This document shows, piece by piece, positions 8,258 through 20,767 of a stretch of 26,014 nt of DNA; the first letter of the stretch is position 1, and each line of letters begins with the position of its first letter. A program made the position numbers and the translations under genes. Below the pieces are notes generated by a model, which saw nothing but the letters and a program-made list of their open reading frames with translations, was not told the origin of the DNA and did no database searches. The DNA comes from a virus, in the IMG/VR virus record IMGVR_UViG_3300007344_000207, positions 1 to 26,014 of that record, one strand, 5' to 3'.

Positions 8258-9676
8258 TTAAGCAGTAGTTTTCTTCAGCATTACGAAGTTGTTCGCAGCT
8301 TGAACACAAAGTGCACGCTCAGAAAGGAAGTGTACGTTCATTTCATCAGCATCACTAGTGTAGTTGCCACCAACTGAACCAGTAACCCAAGACTTCATAC
8401 GACGATCTTCAGCTTCAGAAGCACGGTAACGTACGTGTAAGAACGGACGCGCGATGTTCTGACCTAAGTTTTGGTCGTATACAGTAGAAGTACCAGCAGG
8501 AACAATAACACCCTCTACGTCAGCAATGCTACCGCGAGTTGCAGAATCGTTCAAGTATTTCCAGTCAGTCTTGTAGAAATCGTAAGAACCACGACGGAAT
8601 CCAGAGAAACCTAAGTTCAAAGCCATATCTTCAGAGTTATCGAATACTCCGTAAGAAGTGCCACCTGTTCCGTAGCTGTTAGCACGTGCAAGCATGTTGT
8701 CGATATCTAAAGCAGTACGACGATCCAAGAACATCATGTTCTCCTCAATAGCACCTTGCTTGTCTAATTCTTGAAGGATAACGTCGAAGTCACCCAAACC
8801 AGTCAAACCAGTAGCGTTATTGAAATCTTGGTCGTTGAATACCAAACCGCGAGACTCTAGAGCCGCGAATAGACCTTCAGAACCTTCGATTGAAGCAGTG
8901 TTACCAAAAGCAGCAGCTTGAGCAATAGTAGTCTGAGCTTTTTCAGCTTCAACCATGCTCATCTCCAAGTAGTCTTCAAAACGTAGACGAGACTCGTGCT
9001 CAGACTTCAAGTACCATAAGTAACCAGAAGTACCAGCTTCAGTAGTTACTTCAACCCAACCAATTTGAGCTACATCAGAACCTTTAACATTGTACTTATC
9101 ACGTAAGATGATAGGCTTGTTGTCAAAAGTAGTGAAAGAAGCATCCATTGAGTTTCCAGCACCGCTAGAACCTTTAGTGTACTCAGAACCGTAAACAAAT
9201 ACTTTAGCATCAGTAGCAGCATCAAAGGTGCTACTCAAGTTTGCATCAGAAGTATCGTAAACAGCAATGTTTACAGTATTACCAGATACAGAAGTAACGT
9301 ATGCTTTGTGGCTTACGTATCCTTTAGATACTACCAAAGTCATACCCGCACCGATCAAGTGACCAGCAGGCATAGTAAGTGCATCACCATCAGCATCAAC
9401 AGTAATACCGTCGTAAGCGATGTGAAGACGTCCTTGCTCTTGCCATACTACGCGGTCAGAAGCCATAGGCATTTCTGCACCAACCATGCGCAAGAATCCT
9501 GATACTGTACGGTTTCCGTAGCGCTCTACTTCTTTCTCGTATACCTCAGGAAGGAATTGTTGTGTAAAGTCCATGTCAGCCACAGACAGATAATTGTCAC
9601 CAAACAAGCCCTTGATAGGACGTGGAGTAAGGTGAGCTAAGTTTGCCAGACCAGCTGGCGACGTTGCAAAACTCAT
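8258..9676 (-). CDS. Major capsid protein
   Basis: The product has 472 residues, a usual length for a HK97-fold capsid protein of crAss-like and related podoviruses. The N-terminal arm (MSFATSPAGLANLAHLTPRP) precedes a region with WQEQGRLHIAYDG near residues 78-90. The spine-like part with LRFEDYLEMSMVEAEKAQTT (about 230-249) is followed by VILQELDKQGAIEENMMFLD (about 299-318) and a C-terminal region with FLHVRYRASEAEDRRMKSW. Codon use differs from its neighbours: Arg is mostly CGT/CGC, and AAC, TAC, TTC and GAC are frequent, as expected for the most highly expressed gene. It lies between the acidic scaffold-like gene and the 283-residue head gene. The leader AAAACAAATAAGAA before the ATG has no Shine-Dalgarno sequence. 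Confidence 0.85.
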   Translation of the reverse strand: MSFATSPAGLANLAHLTPRPIKGLFGDNYLSVADMDFTQQFLPEVYEKEVERYGNRTVSGFLRMVGAEMPMASDRVVWQEQGRLHIAYDGITVDADGDALTMPAGHLIGAGMTLVVSKGYVSHKAYVTSVSGNTVNIAVYDTSDANLSSTFDAATDAKVFVYGSEYTKGSSGAGNSMDASFTTFDNKPIILRDKYNVKGSDVAQIGWVEVTTEAGTSGYLWYLKSEHESRLRFEDYLEMSMVEAEKAQTTIAQAAAFGNTASIEGSEGLFAALESRGLVFNDQDFNNATGLTGLGDFDVILQELDKQGAIEENMMFLDRRTALDIDNMLARANSYGTGGTSYGVFDNSEDMALNLGFSGFRRGSYDFYKTDWKYLNDSATRGSIADVEGVIVPAGTSTVYDQNLGQNIARPFLHVRYRASEAEDRRMKSWVTGSVGGNYTSDADEMNVHFLSERALCVQAANNFVMLKKTTA

Positions 9677-10874: not shown

Positions 10875-13304
10875 TTACCTAGGTTCGAAACTTCCTAAAC
10901 CGAAACCCCCACCAAGTATATCATTACCAGAGGATTCGAAGTCTTTAGGCGAACCGCCTTTTTGTCTTTGGTCTATAAGCTCACTTTGTTGTGTAGCTTG
11001 AATTTTTGTTCTTTTGTCTTTGCGATCTTCAGTTTCTGAGATCTTAGTTTTAGCGGCATCAACCTCTAAGCCTTTAAGCTTCATGTTATACTGAAACTCC
11101 AATGCCATTAATTGCATCTTAGCCTCAACTTCTTTGTCAATTCTTGCTTGCTCTAGTTGAGCTTTAAGTTGTTCTAGCTGAGACTTAGTTTGTAATGCAG
11201 CTTGATCTTTCTGCATTTCAGATTGCGCTGCAACTTGTTGTGCTTGAGCATTGGCTTGTGCCTGTGCTTGCATATTTTGTTGTTGCATCATTTGATCACG
11301 CTCTTGTTTTTTCTTACGGCGTAGCTTTAATAACTGGTTAGCTAGCTTTAAGTTTTTAACTTCACGTATATCAATAGCATCATCTAAATCAATAAGTCCT
11401 GCAGATAATGCAGTTTGAATATTGTTTTCTAGTAACGCTTTTTCTTCGTCATCCGGCGAAAGCTCTAATGAAATACCAAAGTCGTGCAAGTGTAAGTCTT
11501 CTAGCTCAGCTAAAATACCTACGTTATGGCTGCCGATTTTTTGTATAAACGCTTCACGCGAAGGATCAAACTCTATAATATCAGAAATACGTAGTGATAA
11601 ACACTCGGCTGTTTCTGCTGTTAAGAATAAACCAGCATCAAGGATATGACGCGTTGCTGTGTTTGAATTGGCTGCTGCCATTTTTTGAACGCCTACTAAT
11701 GCTCTAGAATCAGGCGATGAACCATCACGAGCTTCATTAAGACCCGTAACGTCACGAATCATTTGCAAGTAATAGTTATAGGTTTGTATAAGCGTTTGCA
11801 GCTTCTGGCCGCCCGCACCAGTTTGTAAGGGCTGTATTGGCACTTTGCCTGGATTCATATCACCCTCGCTCGTAAATGAACGACCAATAACAGAACCTGT
11901 TTGGAAGTACATGTTAAGCGCTTCCTGTGGGTTATAGTTGGTACCGTTACCCAAATCAATTTCAGCAAGACCGTCGGCATCCATGTATACCCCATCAGGC
12001 ATCATTTTGCTTAGTACTTGCTGCATCTTAAGGTGAGTAATTTGAATCATATCTGCAAAACCAGTACAGCGGCTTACAATAGATTCAATCTTACCTTTAT
12101 ACATGCGCGGTGCAACAATGCTGTAGTTCATTTTAACTTTAGCATAATCACTTTTAGGGCGCATCATATTTTTAGCCATCTCCCACTTAAGCAGAATGTC
12201 CGTACCTAATATAAGTACACCTTCATACAATACTTCAAGTGAACGAGACATTTTGCCAAACTCAGCCTCAAGTAATTCTACAGGAGGATCAAATTGGTCA
12301 TCTCTTACTATAATTTTAGAAGCACCGGTTGCGGTTTCCTTAACCTTATATACTTCATTCATGTACGTCTTATAATTAAAGTACAAGACTTGCACTACAT
12401 TATTGTCACGAACATCATGGTTTACCAAAGACTGGTCGTATCCAGCGCTATGATTATGTGATCCTTGCTTCTGTATTTTTTCTAATTGCGCTTCATCAAG
12501 ATTAGGAAATTGCTTCTTAAGCTCATTGATAGGCACAAACTTTACTTCACCAACATAATAAATGTCTTCGAAGTACGGCGACTCACTGTAAGAATGTACT
12601 AAATATGCAGGGTCTACATATTCTACTGTTACACCTTCCGATTGGTTAAATGTATTTTTAACAGCAGCAATACCTAGTGTAGTAAGATCGTAATAAAGTC
12701 TTTTCTTAGTTAGGTCGTAGTGGTTACCGTCAAGAAGAGTATTAATAGCTATTTCTTCAGCAATTTCAATACCTTGCTTGTAGCTTAGCTGCATGTGCAA
12801 CTCTAGCTCTTCTTTTGAATCAGGTAACTGCTCCGGACTGTTTTCAAATAAATTTACATCAAACGCTTCTTTAGCAAACTCATTTAACTCTTTTGTCTGC
12901 AAGTCACGTATAATAGATTCCATATACTTTGTGCGTTTGCTTACACCATATGGATCTTGTGAATATGCTTTTAAATCAAATGAACGATCTGCAATACCGT
13001 TAACTACAATATCTACAAACTTAGATAATATAGGTACTGGCTTCCAGTCAAGGTTTAAGTACGACAAGTCACCATTTACAGATAATTCATCTTTATATTT
13101 CTGAACACTCTGTTCGCCACGTGCATACAATCTCAGGTTATGAAACGTATTTTGGTTGCTTCTGAAGCGCGTAGTACCCGAATTGCTAGAGAACCATTCG
13201 TTTTGAATAGCTCTAGCTACTTGCAATCCATAGTCATCTGACATTTTTTCACCATCACTGGCTATCTGACTTGGGAAAGCGCTATTTGAAACCGACTTAG
13301 CCAT
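10875..13304 (-). CDS. Portal protein
   Basis: The product has 809 residues, about the length of portal proteins in crAss-like phages and other large-portal podoviruses. The N-terminal part contains ARAIQNEWFSSNSGTTRFRS, and a wing/stem-like region has WKPVPILSKFVDIVVNGIAD near residue 87. The middle has a segment with MMRPKSDYAKVKMNYSIVAP (about residue 382) and a helical region with TGLNEARDGSSPDSRALVG (about 525-543), typical of portal stem regions. The C-terminal 150 residues are a long Gln/Lys/Glu coiled coil (about 660-775) with runs such as QAQAQANAQAQQ, resembling a barrel extension into the head. The gene follows the large terminase after three bases and precedes the scaffold gene. 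Confidence 0.85.
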   Translation of the reverse strand: MAKSVSNSAFPSQIASDGEKMSDDYGLQVARAIQNEWFSSNSGTTRFRSNQNTFHNLRLYARGEQSVQKYKDELSVNGDLSYLNLDWKPVPILSKFVDIVVNGIADRSFDLKAYSQDPYGVSKRTKYMESIIRDLQTKELNEFAKEAFDVNLFENSPEQLPDSKEELELHMQLSYKQGIEIAEEIAINTLLDGNHYDLTKKRLYYDLTTLGIAAVKNTFNQSEGVTVEYVDPAYLVHSYSESPYFEDIYYVGEVKFVPINELKKQFPNLDEAQLEKIQKQGSHNHSAGYDQSLVNHDVRDNNVVQVLYFNYKTYMNEVYKVKETATGASKIIVRDDQFDPPVELLEAEFGKMSRSLEVLYEGVLILGTDILLKWEMAKNMMRPKSDYAKVKMNYSIVAPRMYKGKIESIVSRCTGFADMIQITHLKMQQVLSKMMPDGVYMDADGLAEIDLGNGTNYNPQEALNMYFQTGSVIGRSFTSEGDMNPGKVPIQPLQTGAGGQKLQTLIQTYNYYLQMIRDVTGLNEARDGSSPDSRALVGVQKMAAANSNTATRHILDAGLFLTAETAECLSLRISDIIEFDPSREAFIQKIGSHNVGILAELEDLHLHDFGISLELSPDDEEKALLENNIQTALSAGLIDLDDAIDIREVKNLKLANQLLKLRRKKKQERDQMMQQQNMQAQAQANAQAQQVAAQSEMQKDQAALQTKSQLEQLKAQLEQARIDKEVEAKMQLMALEFQYNMKLKGLEVDAAKTKISETEDRKDKRTKIQATQQSELIDQRQKGGSPKDFESSGNDILGGGFGLGSFEPR

Positions 13305-13307
13305 AAA

Positions 13308-15518
13308 TTATTTTATTATTTCAGAAGTAAATCCGTCTTGACGGAATTTTGAAATCTTTAGATTTAACTTTGTTTTTTCTAATTTGCCCACTGGTCTATA
13401 CAATTCTTTATTACATGCCATAATTGCTAAGCCCGAGCTTATTGCAGCATCGTACTTAGTACGTTTATTTATATCAAACTTAGACCAGTCATTAAGTGTT
13501 TCGTTAAAGTACATGCTTCCGTACTGCCCATCTTCCATTAAACCTACGTACTTATCTACGTACATTTCTATAGCCGCAGCGTGTGCTTGTTTCATGTCTT
13601 CACTCGAGTTAGGCACACCACCTATTTCTTTTTCCGTTACTGATAGCTTATTCCAAAGCCTATCCGGACGGTTCATAGAGTATCCCCTGTAACCACGGCG
13701 CTTAAAATGATAAAGCAACCTGGGTTTGTTATTCTCTGCTAGTATCGGCATACCATAAAATACACATGCCATCAATACATCTTCAAAGAATATCTCAGCG
13801 GTTTGTGGTCTAGCTATATATTCAAGGAAGAATGTACTTGGCGGTGCATCTTCCATAGTGAACTTAGTGAGTCCGTGTAAAGCCCCTTTTGAACCCTTAC
13901 CATCGGTAGTTCCCGATATGTCGTAGCTATCGCAACCAAATGCGCCGACGTGCTCATTACCCGGGTATTTAACACCATTTTTTGTAATTTGCCTATTCTG
14001 AAGACTAGCACCTGGTATCCAAGATACTTTAAATCTTCCTTGCGGCGTTGGCATAAACACAACTTTTGTATCTTTTATACCATTAACCCACTGAAAATTG
14101 CCAGTGGTTACAACATTAGTATTACGCAGATCTGCATTATAATCAATCTGTTCATATATTTTTGCAAGATTAAACAAGCTATTTTTTGTTTCATCCCTAA
14201 AAGCGTGCTCTTCTGTGCGTGGAAACTGGCGATAATATTCATTTAAAGCATCTTGATCTTGTTTAAGACCTTCAACTTCATTGTTCCAGTAATCTATAAC
14301 GCCTTGTTCTATAGTATCACCAAAAGGGTCTAATACTTCTTTTTCAGGCGTATTAAAAACTGGTTGTCCGTACTGATCAATAAATCCTTCGTAGTTCCAC
14401 TCCATTGGTATAAAGAGTGAATATAATCCTGATTTTGTTTGACCATTAGAGTTTCTTTTAGATACGTCAGAATCTGCATATAGTTTTTTAAAGTTTTCAC
14501 CACCTTTTTCTAATGAATTCGATGTTGATCCCATTAAACACTTGCCTATAATTCTGGCACCCAAACGAAGCGTGGTTTTTGTAACCCGCCAGTTATTTAA
14601 TATGTTATCAGGCCTTTCCCATTTACCGCTCTCATCATGCACTAAAAGCTTTAGCTTCTCACCATCATAAGAGTTATCTCCTGTATTCTTCCAGTCAATA
14701 GTTGTATCAAGACCCTCAAGCTCTATTTGCTTTTCTTTTGCCTGAATTGATTTACGGGTTAGCTTAGAAGCAGGAACCCTATATGCCAGTTCAGTCTTCG
14801 GTCGATCCATACCATCTTGTATAGGTTTGAAGAAAAACGGGTAGTTAACGGATATGGGTACAACCTTATCGGTAAACATTTTCTTTGCATCCGAACCGGT
14901 TTTTGATAATATACCGAATCTTGCATCACTTGAAATGGTAGCGAGGTTAACTGTTTCTCCAGAGGCCATAAACGAAAACCCACTCCGTCTGTTTTTAAGA
15001 TAGCACATCCCATAGCTTCTGTTATCTGCCTTACAGGCTTCCCAAAATATAAAGAAGAGTCTGTTTGCTTCTCTGTAATCGGGGTGTCCAACATCGATCT
15101 TACTCCACTGCAAGTACATGTAATGAGTCCCAGTGATGTAAGTAGGAGTCCCCTTGTTATAAAACCAATAACCACTATCACGCCGGTTGAATTCTTCATC
15201 AATATAGCCCTCCCAATTGCTTTTAAACTCATCTGGATAGGTTTGCCAATCGAATATGCTTTTAATGTTTTTAAGCTCCTTAGGATAGTCTGAAACAACC
15301 CACTTGTTTGCTCCCTTCTTTAACCCTTTAGGTTCCGGCGGCAATGCTATACATAAGTTTTGAATCTCTAGTATTTGCCCTATCTGTCCACTCTTACTAA
15401 TAACAACTATATCGTGTTCTTTGTTATAGCCGTATTTCCAAGACTTGGATCTATTAAGTCTGCTGATTGTTGTGAGCTTAACGTGCTCGGATTCTTTTAC
15501 TAGAGTCTGTTCGTACAT
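13308..15518 (-). CDS. terL: Terminase large subunit (ATPase-nuclease)
   Basis: The product has 736 residues and is the DNA-packaging motor that docks on the portal. The ATPase half shows a Walker A-like loop at about 174-187 (LKNRRSGFSFMASG), a deviant form seen in terminases of this group. Walker B is at 289-296 (LKLLVHDE, with D295 and E296), and a coupling motif lies at about 325-334 (GKCLMGSTSN). The nuclease half shows an acidic residue at D530 in GAFGCDSYDISG, a second acidic site near E579/D580 (EIFFEDVLMA), and D690 in RTKYDAAISSGLA, consistent with the RNase H-like metal triad. The ATG overlaps the TAA of the preceding small gene by one base. A same-strand 179-codon open frame inside it (14759-15298) is a shadow. 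Confidence 0.92.
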   Translation of the reverse strand: MYEQTLVKESEHVKLTTISRLNRSKSWKYGYNKEHDIVVISKSGQIGQILEIQNLCIALPPEPKGLKKGANKWVVSDYPKELKNIKSIFDWQTYPDEFKSNWEGYIDEEFNRRDSGYWFYNKGTPTYITGTHYMYLQWSKIDVGHPDYREANRLFFIFWEACKADNRSYGMCYLKNRRSGFSFMASGETVNLATISSDARFGILSKTGSDAKKMFTDKVVPISVNYPFFFKPIQDGMDRPKTELAYRVPASKLTRKSIQAKEKQIELEGLDTTIDWKNTGDNSYDGEKLKLLVHDESGKWERPDNILNNWRVTKTTLRLGARIIGKCLMGSTSNSLEKGGENFKKLYADSDVSKRNSNGQTKSGLYSLFIPMEWNYEGFIDQYGQPVFNTPEKEVLDPFGDTIEQGVIDYWNNEVEGLKQDQDALNEYYRQFPRTEEHAFRDETKNSLFNLAKIYEQIDYNADLRNTNVVTTGNFQWVNGIKDTKVVFMPTPQGRFKVSWIPGASLQNRQITKNGVKYPGNEHVGAFGCDSYDISGTTDGKGSKGALHGLTKFTMEDAPPSTFFLEYIARPQTAEIFFEDVLMACVFYGMPILAENNKPRLLYHFKRRGYRGYSMNRPDRLWNKLSVTEKEIGGVPNSSEDMKQAHAAAIEMYVDKYVGLMEDGQYGSMYFNETLNDWSKFDINKRTKYDAAISSGLAIMACNKELYRPVGKLEKTKLNLKISKFRQDGFTSEIIK

Positions 15519-15796
15519 TATCTAGATCTTTTTTCAGCAAACCCTGAGAATGTTTTCTTTTCTTTTTCTTCTTTTGGTTTGTTTTCAAGTATTCTTTCTT
15601 CCTCTTCTATGCGAGTAAGTATTTCAAACGCGTCAAAGATGGCCAGCTTCTTAGTAGCAGCGGCATTTTTTAAGCGGTCAGCAGAAACATCATCTTCCGT
15701 ATTGGTAATGATTTGCTCTTGTGCGACTTTTATAAGTTCTTCAACTGCTTTGCGACCAGCTAGGATTATATTCTTTTTCGCTTGTTTGGTGTCCAT
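15518..15796 (-). CDS. Small helical protein before terL, possible terminase small subunit
   Basis: The product has 92 residues, starting MDTKQAKKNIILAGRKAV. It is almost all helical and rich in Lys, Glu and Ala. Residues about 50-75 look like a coiled coil (DAFEILTRIEEEERILENKP), and the tail is basic (FSGFAEKRSR). I chose the ATG at 15796; an in-frame TTG at 15847 would lengthen it but lies deeper in the upstream gene. It overlaps the 196-residue gene by 56 bases, and its stop is joined to the terL start as TAATG. The position directly before terL suggests a terminase small subunit or packaging accessory. I see no clear helix-turn-helix, so this is only a positional guess. Confidence 0.65.
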   Translation of the reverse strand: MDTKQAKKNIILAGRKAVEELIKVAQEQIITNTEDDVSADRLKNAAATKKLAIFDAFEILTRIEEEERILENKPKEEKEKKTFSGFAEKRSR

Positions 15797-16331
15797 ACTT
15801 GATTGTGATTCGATTCTGGGGAACTCGGTAAACTTTCTCCCCCTCAATATTAAATTCGTATTCTGTACCAGGTGTAAAACCTATAAGCTCTCCGTTCTCA
15901 AAACCTTCGTAAGCATATTTAACTTTTCCTATCAAAGGAAGTTCGTTATGTTCGGAGAACATTCTTTCGTCTAGCATAGGCTTAACAAATATAAAACCCT
16001 TCACAGGTTTCCATTCGCTATCACGTTTGAATGCGTAGATCTGATCAGGGTACACAAAGTATTTGTCTTCTTCATAATATGAGCGGCTGTTCTTTTCAGC
16101 ACCCCGCACATCTCTAAATCTTCTGAATACATTATGGTGAACAATAACTTCATCACCGGGTTGTAAACCTAAATCATTTATTTTTGGTACAGCTTTGACA
16201 ACGCCGTGTCTGCTGGTATAAAGATGGTTTTGCAATTCTGTATTAAGTAACAGAGTTACACCATTTATTTCTTTTTCCGATGTCGTTCTTTTGGCATACG
16301 GAGATATAATAAAGTTGTATATGCTTTGCAT
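15741..16331 (-). CDS. Tandem GroES-like (Cpn10 fold) protein
   Basis: The product has 196 residues and reads as two GroES-like units. Unit 1 (about 5-103) has NFIISPYAKRTT, a mobile-loop-like stretch with NGVTLLLNTEL (23-33), RHGVVKAVP (41-49), LGLQPGDEVIVHH (54-66) and closing strands YFVYPDQIYAFK (91-102). Unit 2 (about 109-180) repeats the pattern without a loop: PVKGFIFVKP, IGKVKYAYEG, GFTPGTEYEF and VYRVPQNRITIKYG. The GxxPGxE turn and the V-x-P-x-x-x-I ending occur in both halves. GroES itself has one unit of about 97 residues; tandem forms are known in chloroplast Cpn20. I infer a second co-chaperonin, or a protein that keeps the fold for another use. The start is the ATG at 16331, joined to the upstream stop as TAATG; the GTG at 16337 is less likely. 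Confidence 0.7.
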   Translation of the reverse strand: MQSIYNFIISPYAKRTTSEKEINGVTLLLNTELQNHLYTSRHGVVKAVPKINDLGLQPGDEVIVHHNVFRRFRDVRGAEKNSRSYYEEDKYFVYPDQIYAFKRDSEWKPVKGFIFVKPMLDERMFSEHNELPLIGKVKYAYEGFENGELIGFTPGTEYEFNIEGEKVYRVPQNRITIKYGHQTSEKEYNPSWSQSS

Positions 16332-16552
16332 TACCACTTAAGATCATATTCGATAGATACAGCCATGTTCTTATTAAAGTCTTTCCACGGCATAACCAAA
16401 TCTCCTTTTTGAATATAGATAGAGTACTTAGATTCCTCTTCTAATATGTTAACTATAGTATGACCGCCATACACTTCCTGTCCAACAGAATAATGCATGG
16501 CGTCATTTTTATAGTCCTTCCCGATACTAATCTTGCGGATTACTTGCATCAT
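16331..16552 (-). CDS. Conserved small phage protein
   Basis: The product has 73 residues, starting MMQVIRKISIGKDYKNDAMH. It continues with YSVGQEVYGGHTIVNILEE and a C-terminal part with MPWKDFNKNMAVSIEYDL. I recall very similar small proteins from marine phages, also near packaging genes, with no function assigned. The composition suggests a compact beta-rich fold with no membrane segment and no Cys. Two adjacent ATG codons (16552 and 16549) are both possible starts. A longer form from 16570 would overlap the upstream gene by 44 bases rather than 26. The stop overlaps the start of the tandem GroES-like gene, so the two are probably translated together. Confidence 0.65.
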   Translation of the reverse strand: MMQVIRKISIGKDYKNDAMHYSVGQEVYGGHTIVNILEEESKYSIYIQKGDLVMPWKDFNKNMAVSIEYDLKW

Positions 16553-16793
16553 TAGGAGTGATAGCTCCATCTTGTAAGTTGATACTTACGTCTCCATAAG
16601 TTTTTTCTAAATCAGCTTGTACCTCAGCTAGCTTTGTGCGTAATGCTTTAACATTATCAATCAGCTCAGCTTTTTGCATTTCAGTTCCACCAATCTGCAT
16701 TTGGATTTGCTGTAGAGCATTAACGTACTTTTGTACTTCAGTTAGCTCGTCTGCTGTGATTGCTTTAGCAACCGCTTCTTTCTTCTTTCCCAT
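16527..16793 (-). CDS. Small coiled-coil protein
   Basis: The product has 88 residues with a basic start (MGKKKEAVAKAITADEL). Two amphipathic helices (about 14-34 and 37-66) are separated by a Gly-Gly turn at 35-36. A short beta-like segment (YGDVSINLQDGAI) and a polar tail follow. The helix-turn-helix arrangement is that of a coiled-coil hairpin. This is loosely reminiscent of prefoldin-type arms, but I would not assign that family. Similar small proteins occur in marine phages near terminase genes. The leader carries a short ATTTA-type repeat and no Shine-Dalgarno sequence. The gene overlaps the next gene by 26 bases. Confidence 0.65.
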   Translation of the reverse strand: MGKKKEAVAKAITADELTEVQKYVNALQQIQMQIGGTEMQKAELIDNVKALRTKLAEVQADLEKTYGDVSINLQDGAITPNDASNPQD

Positions 16794-17147: not shown

Positions 17148-18017
17148 TTATTTGCCTTTAAAGTACCCTTTTTTCATTGGGGTAGACTTTTTAATACCTA
17201 CGTTTTGGTCGTAGCGCATAGGAAAACCACTAAAATCAACGTCTCCTGGAGTTCTATCTATTTGAGCAATTACATCTGATCTTTCAATATCAGTTTGATT
17301 TGCCAGACGTGGTTTAGAAATAACTTTGTCATCACGTGTAGCACCCTGTGCTCTTTGGTTTCTTGAACGCTCTAAACTTTCAACGCTTGAAGACATGTCG
17401 GTCTGCACGTCAGAAACACCATCACGATAATTTCTAAGCTCTTGTACCTTATTTTTTGTTTCTTCGTCTTTATAATTAACTCCGTCGGCACCTCTTCGGA
17501 AATCACGACGTTGTGTACGGTTCGACATTAGTTTGCCAAAACCTTTTTTGCCGTCATCATCGGTTTCTTGGGCATAACGTTTTGCTAATTTATTTACAGC
17601 GCGCTTAGATTTTCTTTCAAGAGCGCCACCCTCACGTCTTTCTACAATACGATTTTGATAAGCCCCGTATGGACGGATTGCATCAGTTTCGTCTCTTGTA
17701 TATATAGGTGTTGTGGTTGTTTCCTCAGTATCAGGTGTGCCCGGCGTGCCTGGAGTACCTTCGGTAACAATAGTATTATCAGCTAATCCTTCGGCTGTTG
17801 GGTTATGAGTACCATATTTTTTCATATTATACTCCCTCGCCGCAGCTCTTTCTGATTCAGGTAAATCGCTATAAAGAATGGTTTTCTTTTTGCCTGGAGT
17901 ACCAGAAGTGCCGGGAGTACCTTTAGTTACTTTCGTATCTTTCATTATGATATCTCCGGGACCGTCTACTGCTTTTAAAGGCGATTTTGCTTTTTGTGTA
18001 ATAGGTTTGTTATACAT
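17148..18017 (-). CDS. Disordered protein with Gly-Thr-Pro repeats
   Basis: The product has 289 residues, highly charged and probably disordered over long parts. Two short collagen-like runs stand out: TKGTPGTSGTPG (31-42) and TEGTPGTPGTPD (85-96). Each is preceded by Val and they are about 54 residues apart, which suggests a duplicated module. A basic helical region follows (RKSKRAVNKLAKRYAQETDD), then Arg- and Asp-rich segments and a Lys/Gly-rich C-terminus (MKKGYFKGK). The N-terminus has KSPLK. I do not recognise a family. Composition fits a packaged or virion-associated protein rather than an enzyme. It ends one base before the DUF6321-like start and follows the zincin-like gene after four bases. 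Confidence 0.7.
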   Translation of the reverse strand: MYNKPITQKAKSPLKAVDGPGDIIMKDTKVTKGTPGTSGTPGKKKTILYSDLPESERAAAREYNMKKYGTHNPTAEGLADNTIVTEGTPGTPGTPDTEETTTTPIYTRDETDAIRPYGAYQNRIVERREGGALERKSKRAVNKLAKRYAQETDDDGKKGFGKLMSNRTQRRDFRRGADGVNYKDEETKNKVQELRNYRDGVSDVQTDMSSSVESLERSRNQRAQGATRDDKVISKPRLANQTDIERSDVIAQIDRTPGDVDFSGFPMRYDQNVGIKKSTPMKKGYFKGK

Positions 18018-18021
18018 AATA

Positions 18022-18369
18022 TTATGATTTATATGCTTCGTTTTCCCATTCTAGTTCCGAAGCTCCTTCATTGAGCTCGTGCCTTTTATAAACTTTCATT
18101 GGGGATTTAGTATCTCGTTTCCAGATTATTTCATTTTCAGTATAATCTAGTCGGTTTTGATGCATTTGATTTAAATGCACTTTTTCGTGCTCAACTGCTT
18201 CTTCTTTTTGCTTTGGTGATAACCCTTTATCAATAAAAATAGTTCCGTCACGATTAGCTTCCGCCATCACTTGGCCACCTAAATCTTTTTCAAATACAGG
18301 CGCATCAAATGTTGAGGTTTGCTTATCGTAACCGAACAGGGTACTTTTATCCTTAAGCTTAAAAGGCAT
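18022..18369 (-). CDS. Small HExxH zincin-like protein
   Basis: The product has 115 residues, starting MPFKLKDKSTLFGYDKQTS. It contains DGTIFIDKGLSPKQKEEAVE followed by HEKVH at 61-65, a zinc-binding HExxH motif with H61, E62 and H65. A Glu-rich C-terminus (GASELEWENEAY, 102-113) could supply the third ligand (E108 or E111). The I-x-I-D, L-S-P, then HE-x-x-H spacing resembles very small metallopeptidase-like domains of the ImmA/IrrE or DUF4157 type, but the protein is shorter than a full enzyme of those families. Its substrate is unknown; capsid maturation and cell-wall or host-factor cleavage are all possible. I chose the ATG at 18369, joined to the upstream TAA, over an in-frame TTG at 18375. 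Confidence 0.65.
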   Translation of the reverse strand: MPFKLKDKSTLFGYDKQTSTFDAPVFEKDLGGQVMAEANRDGTIFIDKGLSPKQKEEAVEHEKVHLNQMHQNRLDYTENEIIWKRDTKSPMKVYKRHELNEGASELEWENEAYKS

Positions 18370-18524
18370 TAGCAATCACACTTCCCTGTGCAACCACAGC
18401 TTCCTACATTAGTAAAGTTAGCACGCTTTTTACCAGCTGCATCTAATGTAACTTCTTGATTTGCAGGTGCTTTACCGTAATCAGTAACTGCACGCTTTGT
18501 AATAGGCTCTAAGTGATTCTTCAT
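18369..18524 (-). CDS. 51-residue Cys-rich protein
   Basis: This short gene starts at the ATG at 18524, which overlaps the preceding TGA (ATGA), and ends at a TAA that overlaps the next ATG (TAATG). The product starts MKNHLEPITKRAVTDYGKAP and ends NVGSCGCTGKCDC. Four Cys lie in the last nine residues as CxCxxxCxC (C43, C45, C49, C51). The rest has no Cys. The stop-start joints on both sides, the good spacing and the non-random C-terminus argue that it is real. The Cys cluster could bind zinc or another metal. I know of no family that fits firmly. Confidence 0.7.
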   Translation of the reverse strand: MKNHLEPITKRAVTDYGKAPANQEVTLDAAGKKRANFTNVGSCGCTGKCDC

Positions 18525-18961
18525 CGTTCTTTGTCTTTAATCATGTCGTCTATAGCTTTATTATAGACTTTATCAGTATAACTCTTGTTCTTGTAAAATT
18601 TGCTTGACCTACCGATTGGTAAATCTTCTTCCCCAAGCATAACTCGATACATGCGTGTAATCAAGCGTTTAGCTTTAGGTGACGTTGTGAAAACACTGTA
18701 TTTGATTGTAGTCCTATTACGATGACGCCATACGTCAATCCAGCCATCATTTCGAAGTCTTTCCCAGCGGTTTTTATCCCATGCATAGGTATAAGTTCCT
18801 TCTATAAAATCATTACGCGTAAATCGATCTTTGCAATCTAGATATATTAGCAGCTCTAGGTCAGCATCTAATATATCGTAAGTCTTACAGGCCCATTTTC
18901 TAACGAGCCTGTAATACTTAAACAAATTTATTTCACGTAAATCCGCGGGTGTTAGTCTCAT
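18521..18961 (-). CDS. Putative winged-helix DNA-binding protein
   Basis: The product has 146 residues, starting MRLTPADLREINLFKYYRLV. It is helical at first (about 10-50, with CKTYDILDADLELLIYLDCK). RFTRNDF and YAWDKNRWERLRNDGWIDVW (about 59-78) follow in the way a recognition helix is followed by a wing, and HRNRTTIKYSVFTTSPKAKR forms a beta hairpin and helix. The pattern resembles MarR-like winged helices, and the protein is rich in Arg and Lys. Proteins like it occur in marine phages near the terminase, where a small-subunit or regulator role has been suggested. I place it only as a likely DNA-binding protein. It is ATGA-coupled to the groES stop on one side and to the 51-residue gene on the other. 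Confidence 0.55.
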   Translation of the reverse strand: MRLTPADLREINLFKYYRLVRKWACKTYDILDADLELLIYLDCKDRFTRNDFIEGTYTYAWDKNRWERLRNDGWIDVWRHRNRTTIKYSVFTTSPKAKRLITRMYRVMLGEEDLPIGRSSKFYKNKSYTDKVYNKAIDDMIKDKER

Positions 18962-19215
18962 TCCACGATAACAACATCACCTACGGTAATAACATGAAAC
19001 AACTCATCATTCCATTCGATACCATGACCAGCGTGCTTATCGTATCTAATAGTGTTTCCATTTTCAACACCAATCACTAATGGTCCACAGCTAACGACTT
19101 CAGCCTTTAGATACCTAACGTCGCTGTTTTGCTTTTCAGTTAATTCAAGGCCGGCAACTGTTTTAGCTGCCTCCTTGATTTTCTTAATGATAATATAATT
19201 ATTTACCGCTTTCAT
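18958..19215 (-). CDS. groES: Co-chaperonin GroES
   Basis: The product has 85 residues, against about 97 in bacteria. It begins [19 protein letters not shown] and continues with a mobile-loop-like region including TVAGLELTEKQ (19-29), whose GLEL would supply the hydrophobic contact for GroEL. YLKAEVVSCGP and YDKHAGHGIEWNDELFH follow, and the chain ends VGDVVIVE, which matches the typical GroES C-terminal strand. It should form a seven-subunit lid over the GroEL cavity. It overlaps the end of groEL by 17 bases, so the two are translated together. The order is groEL then groES, the reverse of the usual bacterial operon. It is clearly divergent, so it is more likely an old phage gene than a recent host copy. 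Confidence 0.85.
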   Translation of the reverse strand: MKAVNNYIIIKKIKEAAKTVAGLELTEKQNSDVRYLKAEVVSCGPLVIGVENGNTIRYDKHAGHGIEWNDELFHVITVGDVVIVE

Positions 19216-20767
19216 CCATTCTCATATTAGAGATTACACAATCTGCAGAAATAATTGTTGTTGCTACACTGACTGCATTCTTCAGTGCGGTTTTAGTTAC
19301 AAGCACTGGGTCAATAATACCAGCCTTGATCATATTTACTTTTTTACCCGTAGTAGCATCAATACCATAACCCTTGCGTGTAATTGGCTCTTCAAGCACA
19401 ATATTTGCGTTTTCAAGAATGGTATTAAACGGAGAAACAAGAGCTCTAAGAAGAGCAGTGTATCCAACATTTTTATGTTTAATCTTTAGTGATGCATGCA
19501 AAAGCGCTGCGCCACCCCCTGCTACAATACCTTCTTTTAACGCGGCTTGCGTTGCATAGATGGCATCTTCTACTCTATCTTTCTTTTCTTTGAGCTCGAC
19601 CTGTGAGTCAGCTCCTACATAAATCAGTCCAACCTTACCGGTTAACATTGATAAACGCTCTTCGAGCTTACCCCTAAAGTAAGGGTTTGTTTCAGAACCG
19701 ATTCTTTCACGTACATTTTCAATACGCTCGAGAAGCTGCTCATGGTCGGTCTCTACCTGCATCACAGTGTTCTTAGAAGAAGTAACTGATTTTACCGCTT
19801 CTCCTAACACTTCGGGATTGATCAGATCCAAATCATCGCCAAGCTCTTCATTAATGACTGTAGCCCCAGTTAATATTGCTAAGTCTTCGATTGCTTCCTG
19901 CTTAGTTGGCCCAAACCCAGGTAAGTCTACTATGTTTACCTTGATATTGCCTTTTACCTTGTTAGCTAATAACGTTTGGTAAGGTTGTTGCTCAACGTCA
20001 GCGACGATTAGCAGGCTTCTATTCTTCTTTACAACGTGTTCTAAGACACTTTGGATCTTTCTTATATTAGGTATAGGCGAAGACACAATAAGGACCATAG
20101 GGTTGTCTAAAACAGCTAAGCCTTTGTCTTTGTCCGTTACAAGATGTGGTGATTTTAATCCTGAATCAAATTGAGTACCCTCTACAAACTCTACATAAGT
20201 TTCGTTTGTTTCGGATTCTTCCATCAATACAACTCCATCTTTTCCAACTTTGCCGAAAGCTTCACCAATAAAGCTTCCAAGCTCTTCGTCATTGTTTGTG
20301 CTAATGTATGCAACTTGCTTAAGCATTTCACCATCAACCGGAAGACTGGTAGTATCAAGATATTCCAAGATCTCCTTAGCACAGTCTTCAACGCCTTTTT
20401 TAATTTCTCTAATTTTGTCATCACTTGTAAATTCACTTAGTTCTATTAATAATGAGTGAGCAAGGACAGTAGAGGTTGTCGTACCGTCACCTGCTTCACG
20501 CACTGTATTTCGGGCAGCTTCCTTAACTAATGTTGCACCGATGTTTTCGACCGGATCCATCAAGACTACGCTTTCTGCTACGGTTACACCATCTTTAGTG
20601 ATGACCGGTCGGCCAAGGGCGTCTTCGTAAATCACGCATTTACCGGAAGCACCTAATGTGGACTTCACTGCGTTAGCTAACTTTTCGACGCCGGCCATAA
20701 TTTTTCCGTTGGCAGCACTGCCAAACGTGAGATCCTTTACAATCTCGCTAGGGTTATTAAATTCCAT
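19199..20767 (-). CDS. groEL: Chaperonin GroEL
   Basis: The product has 522 residues. The ATPase site is intact: [10 protein letters not shown] (D59 = E. coli D52), [11 protein letters not shown] (D94 = D87) and [12 protein letters not shown] (D401 = D398), plus VAGGG at 415-419. The apical binding face differs: the E. coli YLSPYF segment is LKSPHL here (204-209), and GFGDRRKAM becomes GFGPTKQEA. Near the C-terminus the equatorial domain lacks several residues before the inter-ring contact ([10 protein letters not shown] follows LKIKHK directly). The Gly-Gly-Met tail is missing; the chain ends NMRMDESGK. It should fold proteins in the phage-infected cell, presumably virion proteins. The leader AATTTAATATA before the ATG has no Shine-Dalgarno sequence. 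It stands 24 bases after the 94-residue gene. Confidence 0.95.

Follow-up and report, generated by a model that had tools for sequence, protein, structure and literature searches.

A phage gene beside the terminase is predicted to encode two Cpn10 domains in tandem, a possible Cpn20-like partner of the phage GroES

The stretch of DNA analysed here (the window) is a virus record of 26,014 bases in which the large open reading frames (ORFs) lie on the minus strand. At 15741..16331, on that strand, lies a gene of 196 codons plus a stop—it starts with an ATG at 16331, its last codon is at 15744, and its stop occupies 15741-15743—that we describe as a tandem Cpn10-like gene on the basis of the ORF call, a match to phrog_13932, an AlphaFold2 model, and the match of that model to the structure 7ekq_R. 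Read along the minus strand, the order of genes is groEL, groES, several small genes, a 79-aa ORF, the tandem gene, a small ORF, the terminase, the portal, a 381-aa ORF, and a structural protein (8258-9676). The packaging genes are readily recognized: the terminase large subunit (13308..15518, minus strand) matches phrog_6681 with an E value of 3.5e-169, and the portal protein (10875..13304, minus strand) matches phrog_6547 with an E value of 1e-155. The same holds for the chaperonin genes, with groEL (19199..20767, minus strand) matching Pfam Cpn60 (E 1.1e-55, 189.7 bits) and phrog_5725 (E 1.8e-138), and a single-domain groES (18958..19215, minus strand) matching Pfam Cpn10 (E 3.4e-8, 33.8 bits). 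These two genes overlap at 19199-19215 and groEL comes first; the usual bacterial order is groES-groEL, the reverse of that in the window. Other ORFs include one at 17148-18017 with low-complexity, GTPGTPGTP-like triplet runs, and a small one at 18022-18375 with an HExxH-like stretch (VEHEKVHLNQMHQ), which is perhaps a metallopeptidase.

The surroundings of the tandem gene are conserved. In a set of 196 loci (L019, L216-L219, and L245 are not included), many of them near-identical and so not giving independent counts, a terminase match starts at most 2.5 kb downstream on the same strand in 184 of the 184 loci with at least 1,200 bases downstream, a homologue of the 79-aa ORF lies directly upstream in 172 of the 181 with room, and a tblastn homologue of the ORF between tandem and terminase occurs in 178 of all 196. 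The upstream ORF (16331..16570, minus strand), identified by this synteny, has no family match in Pfam or PHROGs. The downstream ORF (15518..15796, minus strand) overlaps the 3' end of the tandem gene and encodes 92 aa from its ATG, or 109 aa if started from a TTG at 15847; it has no Pfam match at E 1, and its PHROGs matches are at E 0.06 or worse. The idea that the 109-aa form represents a split-off N-terminal part of the elemo terminase, which is longer, is unsupported (E 1.4), though the terminases themselves align.

Structure prediction indicates that the ORF at 15741-16331 almost certainly codes for two Cpn10 domains in tandem. It is not a chance ORF, since a relative is encoded in at least 589 viral stretches among the 600 matches listed in a scan of IMG/VR. 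The full-length AlphaFold2 model, built from 58 sequences, has a pLDDT of 84.1 and a pTM of 0.75. Its top match in Foldseek, and the sole one at 0.001 or better, is 7ekq_R (E 2.4e-5), with many single Cpn10 chains ranking after it; VIA-align gives the same chain a Z of 10.3 with an rmsd of 3.6 over 153 residues, spanning model residues 1-180. This top PDB match of both tools has 194 residues and comes from the Chlamydomonas ClpP complex, which is described as bearing a CPN11/CPN20/CPN23 heterotetramer (PMC8889267). Because the match to 7ekq_R places both halves together, their predicted relative orientation resembles that of neighbours in a ring, an arrangement that in an AlphaFold2 model could echo Cpn20 from the training data. 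The likeness to chloroplast Cpn20 and the position beside packaging genes, both put forward in the initial annotation of this DNA, are borne out by this match and by the terminase downstream.

The N-terminal domain (residues 1-105; 16017..16331, minus strand) was also modelled alone, with a pLDDT of 89.9. The input comprised 67 of 73 extracted sequences—L225, L229, and L230 were left out because they contain X, and L228, L236, and L237 as redundant—and 11 of the 58 earlier members had already been excluded beforehand. Compared with known structures, as the initial annotation had suggested for GroES and gp31, the N-half alone ranks GroES, gp31, and Cpn20 at the top: Cpn10, gp31, and Cpn20 make up the whole of the best 16 entries, whose Z values of 5.6-7.8 lie in the range under 8 where by the tool's own warning they may reflect a common arrangement. 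Dehydrogenase domains come next at Z 5.5 or less and practically tie with the lowest Cpn10 entry (5.6). Foldseek places the same families on top, but with a best E of 0.012 and none at 0.001 or better. We assign the Cpn10 fold to the N-half because Cpn10-type entries head the list, because the alignments cover up to 82 of its 105 residues, and because of its family link. The C-terminal domain (residues 106-181; 15789..16016, minus strand) is assigned from the full-length model, within which it matches single Cpn10 structures with Z up to 9.6 over 74 residues, from hhalign, and from Pfam matches in relatives.

Sequence searches place the protein in a co-chaperonin family mainly through these relatives. 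The window protein matches the profile of phrog_13932 (PHROGs v4, co-chaperonin GroES) with an E value of 3.5e-12, residues 1-134 aligning with positions 1-137 of 200, and the phi18:3, phi38:1, elemo, and Panino proteins match the same profile. Against Pfam, the window protein has no match, Cpn10 included, and the elemo and Panino tandems have no match to Cpn10; the second half scores 32.6 bits in phi18:3 and 28.2 bits in phi38:1, above the Pfam Cpn10 cut-off of 21.1, and PF00166 is matched at E 1 or better by 16 of 58 tandem members, the best at 2e-6. Searches of PDB sequences found no co-chaperonin, either with the single window protein or with the family profile, whose four matches were all at E 0.5 or worse. 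In hhalign comparisons made with 58 + 7 tandem sequences and a phage GroES set, the C-half matches that set with a probability of 94.6% and the N-half with 46%, while the two halves match each other with 2.7%. The halves thus have a common fold and little common sequence. A lack of similarity between them had been proposed as an argument against a tandem; the sequence profiles do show such a lack, yet the fold is common, and it is the fold that we let outweigh. Two tandem Cpn10 domains, supported by the full-length and N-half models and by the sequences of relatives, add up with the Pfam-matched groES to the three Cpn10-like units originally ascribed to this phage.

The motifs that had first suggested this reading hold up less well than the reading itself. 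A GxxPGxE turn had been noted in both halves, and the motif is indeed present at residues 55 and 151, but these positions are non-equivalent: alignments place the one at 55 in the conserved GD-V-I turn and the one at 151 in the next segment of its domain. Since the sites are non-equivalent and both motifs are found in just 1 of 58 non-redundant members, we have dropped the repeat as evidence. A closing V-x-P-x-x-x-I strand is absent as written, with VYPDQI at 93 and VPQNRI at 170 instead. Both cues are accidental; the conclusion drawn from them is right.

The two domains differ in the loop that in a co-chaperonin would grip GroEL. In the N-half, a mobile-loop-like segment, GVTLLLNTELQNHLYTSR (residues 24-41; 16209..16262, minus strand), is marked out by conservation—a mean of 0.80 over residues 25-41 versus 0.69 for the whole protein among 26 clade members, with L29, N30, T31, H36, and R41 invariant—and follows the pattern L-[LI]-L-N-T-E, on to R41, in the window clade; the segment at 59-74 is conserved above this loop, at 0.90. 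Alignments identify a reduced loop in the C-half, DERMFSEHNELPL (residues 121-133; 15933..15971, minus strand), which is short in the window clade and has a conservation of 0.55. The initial annotation saw a loop in the first half only, which is correct for the window phage but not for phi18:3, phi38:1, L088, and L089, where alignments reveal a longer, GroES-like loop in the second half as well. Because these distant relatives have the longer loop, the simplest reading of the sequences is a two-loop co-chaperonin ancestor whose second loop was later reduced.

The protein ends in a conserved peptide, EKEYNPSW (residues 185-192; 15756..15779, minus strand), which overlaps the next gene and is recognized by its conservation and low pLDDT. 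All eight residues are invariant in 26 non-redundant clade members, and the exact peptide occurs in 82 of 91 proteins that were picked by residues 1-160 alone, blind to the tail; of the other nine, four carry a close variant, four are without such a tail, and one has no anchor. The tail is predicted by AlphaFold2 to be disordered, with pLDDT below 50 at 182-190 and 192-196. Where it overlaps the next ORF, 21 distinct DNA versions encode 6 peptides in the tandem frame and 13 in the other, so that the tandem's peptide seems the more tightly conserved; judged from these sequences, selection is likely acting on the tandem's own tail.

Relatives of the tandem number in the hundreds among viral contigs. 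A second scan, with the homologue of phage ctfjg026, found relatives in 540 of 545 stretches, which may share members with those found using the window protein. Of 50,697 phage records searched by tblastn, 78 match, and 77 of these are 68 Flavobacterium elemo records, 7 Cellulophaga phi38:1/phi40:1/Calle records, Maribacter Panino, and ctfjg026; the remaining one, in Cobetia phage Carin1, covers 17% of the query with an E value of about 10 and is certainly a chance match. A more distant tandem is present in phi18:3, phi19:3, phi46:3, and phi13:2, found via the terminase, a fold search, and a further scan. Scanning with the Panino protein gave no relatives. When 84,980 bacterial and archaeal species, each represented by one genome, were scanned with two short conserved patterns, 26 loci were found, all in metagenome-assembled genomes (MAGs), and no tandem in any cultured bacterium; the 26 loci look like phage contigs because a terminase lies behind the gene wherever there is room. 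In related work, chaperonin cpn10 is counted among the core genes of the Pervagoviridae, in a passage that does not tell which of the two Cpn10 genes is meant (PMC8776804), and GroEL is given in 36 of 78 related environmental genomes (PMC5332604).

The genomes that carry a tandem usually carry its potential partners. Among tandem-bearing records of at least 55 kb (n = 22), a single GroES is present in 21 and GroEL in 16, although the lineage shares genes by descent, so that the tandem and GroES are not independent evidence and descent explains part of their co-occurrence. This count leaves out records below 55 kb (possible fragments), L228, the 1.05-Mb L232 contig, and IMG/VR duplicates of named phages; a single record stands for all 68 from elemo phages. 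Both GroES and GroEL are present in MW202828, NC_055853, NC_021796, PP540027, NC_062744, G006, G010, G014 to G018, G022, and the contigs of L223, L239, and L244. GroES occurs without GroEL in five tandem records—phi18:3, phi19:3, phi46:3, phi13:2, and G013—and complete phi18:3-type genomes are among them. The 56.5-kb contig of L240 has a tandem with neither GroES nor GroEL, and a 3.4-kb contig of the same MAG holds a GroES/GroEL pair. Below 55 kb, both partners are present in the window and in G001, G002, G005, G009, G012, G019, and G021; G003, G004 (52.5 kb), G007, G008, G011, and G020, which may be fragments, lack both a single GroES and a GroEL above the cut-off. Among the long records, then, the tandem goes with GroES more often than with GroEL, which is what a mixed lid would predict. 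Gundel, the only tandem-less terminase relative examined, has no tandem, GroES, or GroEL.

As to the completeness of these records, eight viral ones were tested for terminal repeats, which are present in G013 (32 bases), G016 (123), and G017 (123) and absent from G004, G006, G010, G014, and G015; MW202828, NC_021796, NC_021794, NC_021789, NC_021792, and NC_062744 were deposited as circular. Locus L088, in the 72,812-base record G013 with its 32-base repeat, is a second groEL-less case beside the phi18:3 type.

One of the closest known systems is the chloroplast Cpn20, or CPN20 and CPN23 in Chlamydomonas. As in the phage tandem, two Cpn10 domains are joined head to tail, and this is the best match over both halves; the phage genome also encodes a single Cpn10 partner. 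The differences are that the tandem is a phage gene placed before a terminase, that it has an extra conserved tail, and that in the window clade only the first half has a full loop. Plant Cpn20 has a mobile loop in both domains, a feature missing from the window-clade tandem, and we therefore propose that the latter may work like Cpn20, not that it is one. T4 gp31 and GroES have the same domain fold as both tandem halves (gp31, 1g31_A, has a Z of 6.8 with each) but are single-domain proteins, whereas the tandem has two domains per chain and so is not of the gp31 type. The phage's own GroES belongs to the Cpn10 family too, and it is its GroES set that the tandem's C-half matches; in contrast to the tandem, it has one domain, a full mobile loop, and a Pfam match above the cut-off, and it adjoins groEL.

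From these comparisons, some role for the tandem in a lid on GroEL is probable, and we are somewhat inclined to a specific form of it, in which the tandem is a Cpn20-like lid subunit that acts with the phage GroES on GroEL. Each chain, with its two predicted Cpn10 domains side by side, would grip GroEL by the loop of the first, and tandems would build a seven-domain lid together with the single GroES, for example from three tandems and one GroES. Such a lid would cap the phage's GroEL or, in groEL-less relatives, that of the host, and the closed chamber would serve to fold late products, the major capsid protein for instance. We infer all of these elements—GroEL binding, the mixed ring, the subunit number, and the substrate. 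The mixed ring of seven domains in particular is tentative, and rather less probable than not on our analysis, while naming the phage capsid protein as the client would be a guess from the likeness to T4 gp31. Precedents exist in the literature: Chlamydomonas CPN20 and CPN23 are described as assembling with a single co-chaperonin into rings that count seven GroES-like domains, and lids of six or eight domains as working with GroEL in vitro (PMC5780408), and T4 gp31 is described as forming a lid fit for the large capsid protein gp23 (PMC6318259). A more elaborate version—an asymmetric hybrid lid of three one-loop tandems and one GroES, with seven domains and four loops, on phage or host GroEL, whose conserved tail would tie it to the terminase or portal and so couple head-protein folding to packaging—strikes us as improbable.

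A lid could also be built from tandems only, apart from GroES. Three or four tandems would leave one position unmatched; alternatively, seven tandems would form two tiers, the halves with a loop sitting on GroEL and those without one enlarging the chamber as a second tier. The seven-tandem version has the appeal that one loop per chain gives seven loops for seven GroEL subunits, and both the fit of the gp31 lid to gp23 (PMC6318259) and the acceptance by GroEL of six- or eight-domain lids in vitro (PMC5780408) also speak for a tandem-only lid. The model, however, predicts the side-by-side placement of a Cpn20-type chain and not stacked domains, and a single GroES accompanies the tandem in all but one of the 22 long records, so a tandem-only lid seems unlikely.

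Another proposal is that the Cpn10 fold has been reused in head assembly or packaging, and that the tandem now acts on the terminase, portal, or capsid and no longer on GroEL. The invariable terminase downstream (184 of 184 loci with room), the retention of the tandem where groEL is missing, the reduced loop of the C-half, and the conserved, predicted disordered tail, which could bind a partner, are all consistent with this. Against it, the N-half loop is conserved, and groEL-less phages could use the host GroEL. Records of virion proteins bear on the question as well: in the phi18:3 record, 12 of the 80 genes viewed (gp044-gp123, of 123) carry an MS/MS note, the portal included, and the tandem (gp096), the single GroES (gp080), and the terminase are among the viewed genes without one. 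The missing note counts weakly against the tandem as an abundant virion component; as an argument against reuse in packaging it is weak, given that the terminase has no note either. Altogether we consider this reuse unlikely, though the fixed position ahead of the terminase, the groEL-less genomes, and the tail lend it some weight. For phi38:1 (W03 / NC_021796), GroEL is given as methylated in free virions (PMC13288928), so that virions may carry a phage chaperonin inside them or on their surface.

A GroES-like barrel that is unrelated to chaperonins and belongs to a different family (the catalytic domain of medium-chain dehydrogenases is one example) can hardly be the answer: such domains reach Z 5.5 in the structure lists, but they rank under 16 Cpn10-type entries in both (tying with the lowest in that of the N-half), and relatives of the tandem exceed the Pfam Cpn10 cut-off.

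Among the roles first envisaged—a second co-chaperonin, a hetero-lid, or a fold reused for head assembly—the evidence leans toward a co-chaperonin working with the phage GroES, because 21 of the 22 long records carry both and 16 carry GroEL. The protein is of a known kind, since database records and PHROGs already name the family co-chaperonin GroES; what is new is a tandem variant in a phage. The phrog_13932 label is silent on the tandem build and on the reduced second loop of the window clade, and our finding sharpens records that label the tandem and the single protein alike as GroES. No paper on a phage tandem co-chaperonin was found among the matches listed in a search of open-licence literature, and published work attributes tandem co-chaperonins to chloroplasts and to the related apicoplast (PMC5780408). 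A lineage of phages that has a tandem of its own and retains it alongside GroES even without GroEL would independently test how even-numbered subunits serve a seven-fold chamber. In addition, the series from two loops (phi18:3, phi38:1, L088) to one (the window clade) makes the number of grips needed per lid directly testable in isolates of Cellulophaga and Flavobacterium phages.

Two further observations concern related phages. In phi14:2 (NC_021806, Crassvirales), a 129-aa ORF (L249:34264-34653) lies two genes upstream of the terminase, with groEL nearby; by its length and its phage, it is probably the protein S0A2F3 that Foldseek matched weakly (E 0.015). As a GroES-like protein it has no Pfam Cpn10, PHROG, or profile support and is a lead only. 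In Panino (L085, PP540027), the tandem is the sole gene labelled co-chaperonin GroES in the stretch viewed, and the single GroES, at 68128-68394 of the record, was deposited as a hypothetical protein; GroEL and GroES homologues are mentioned in the paper describing this phage (PMC11590407).
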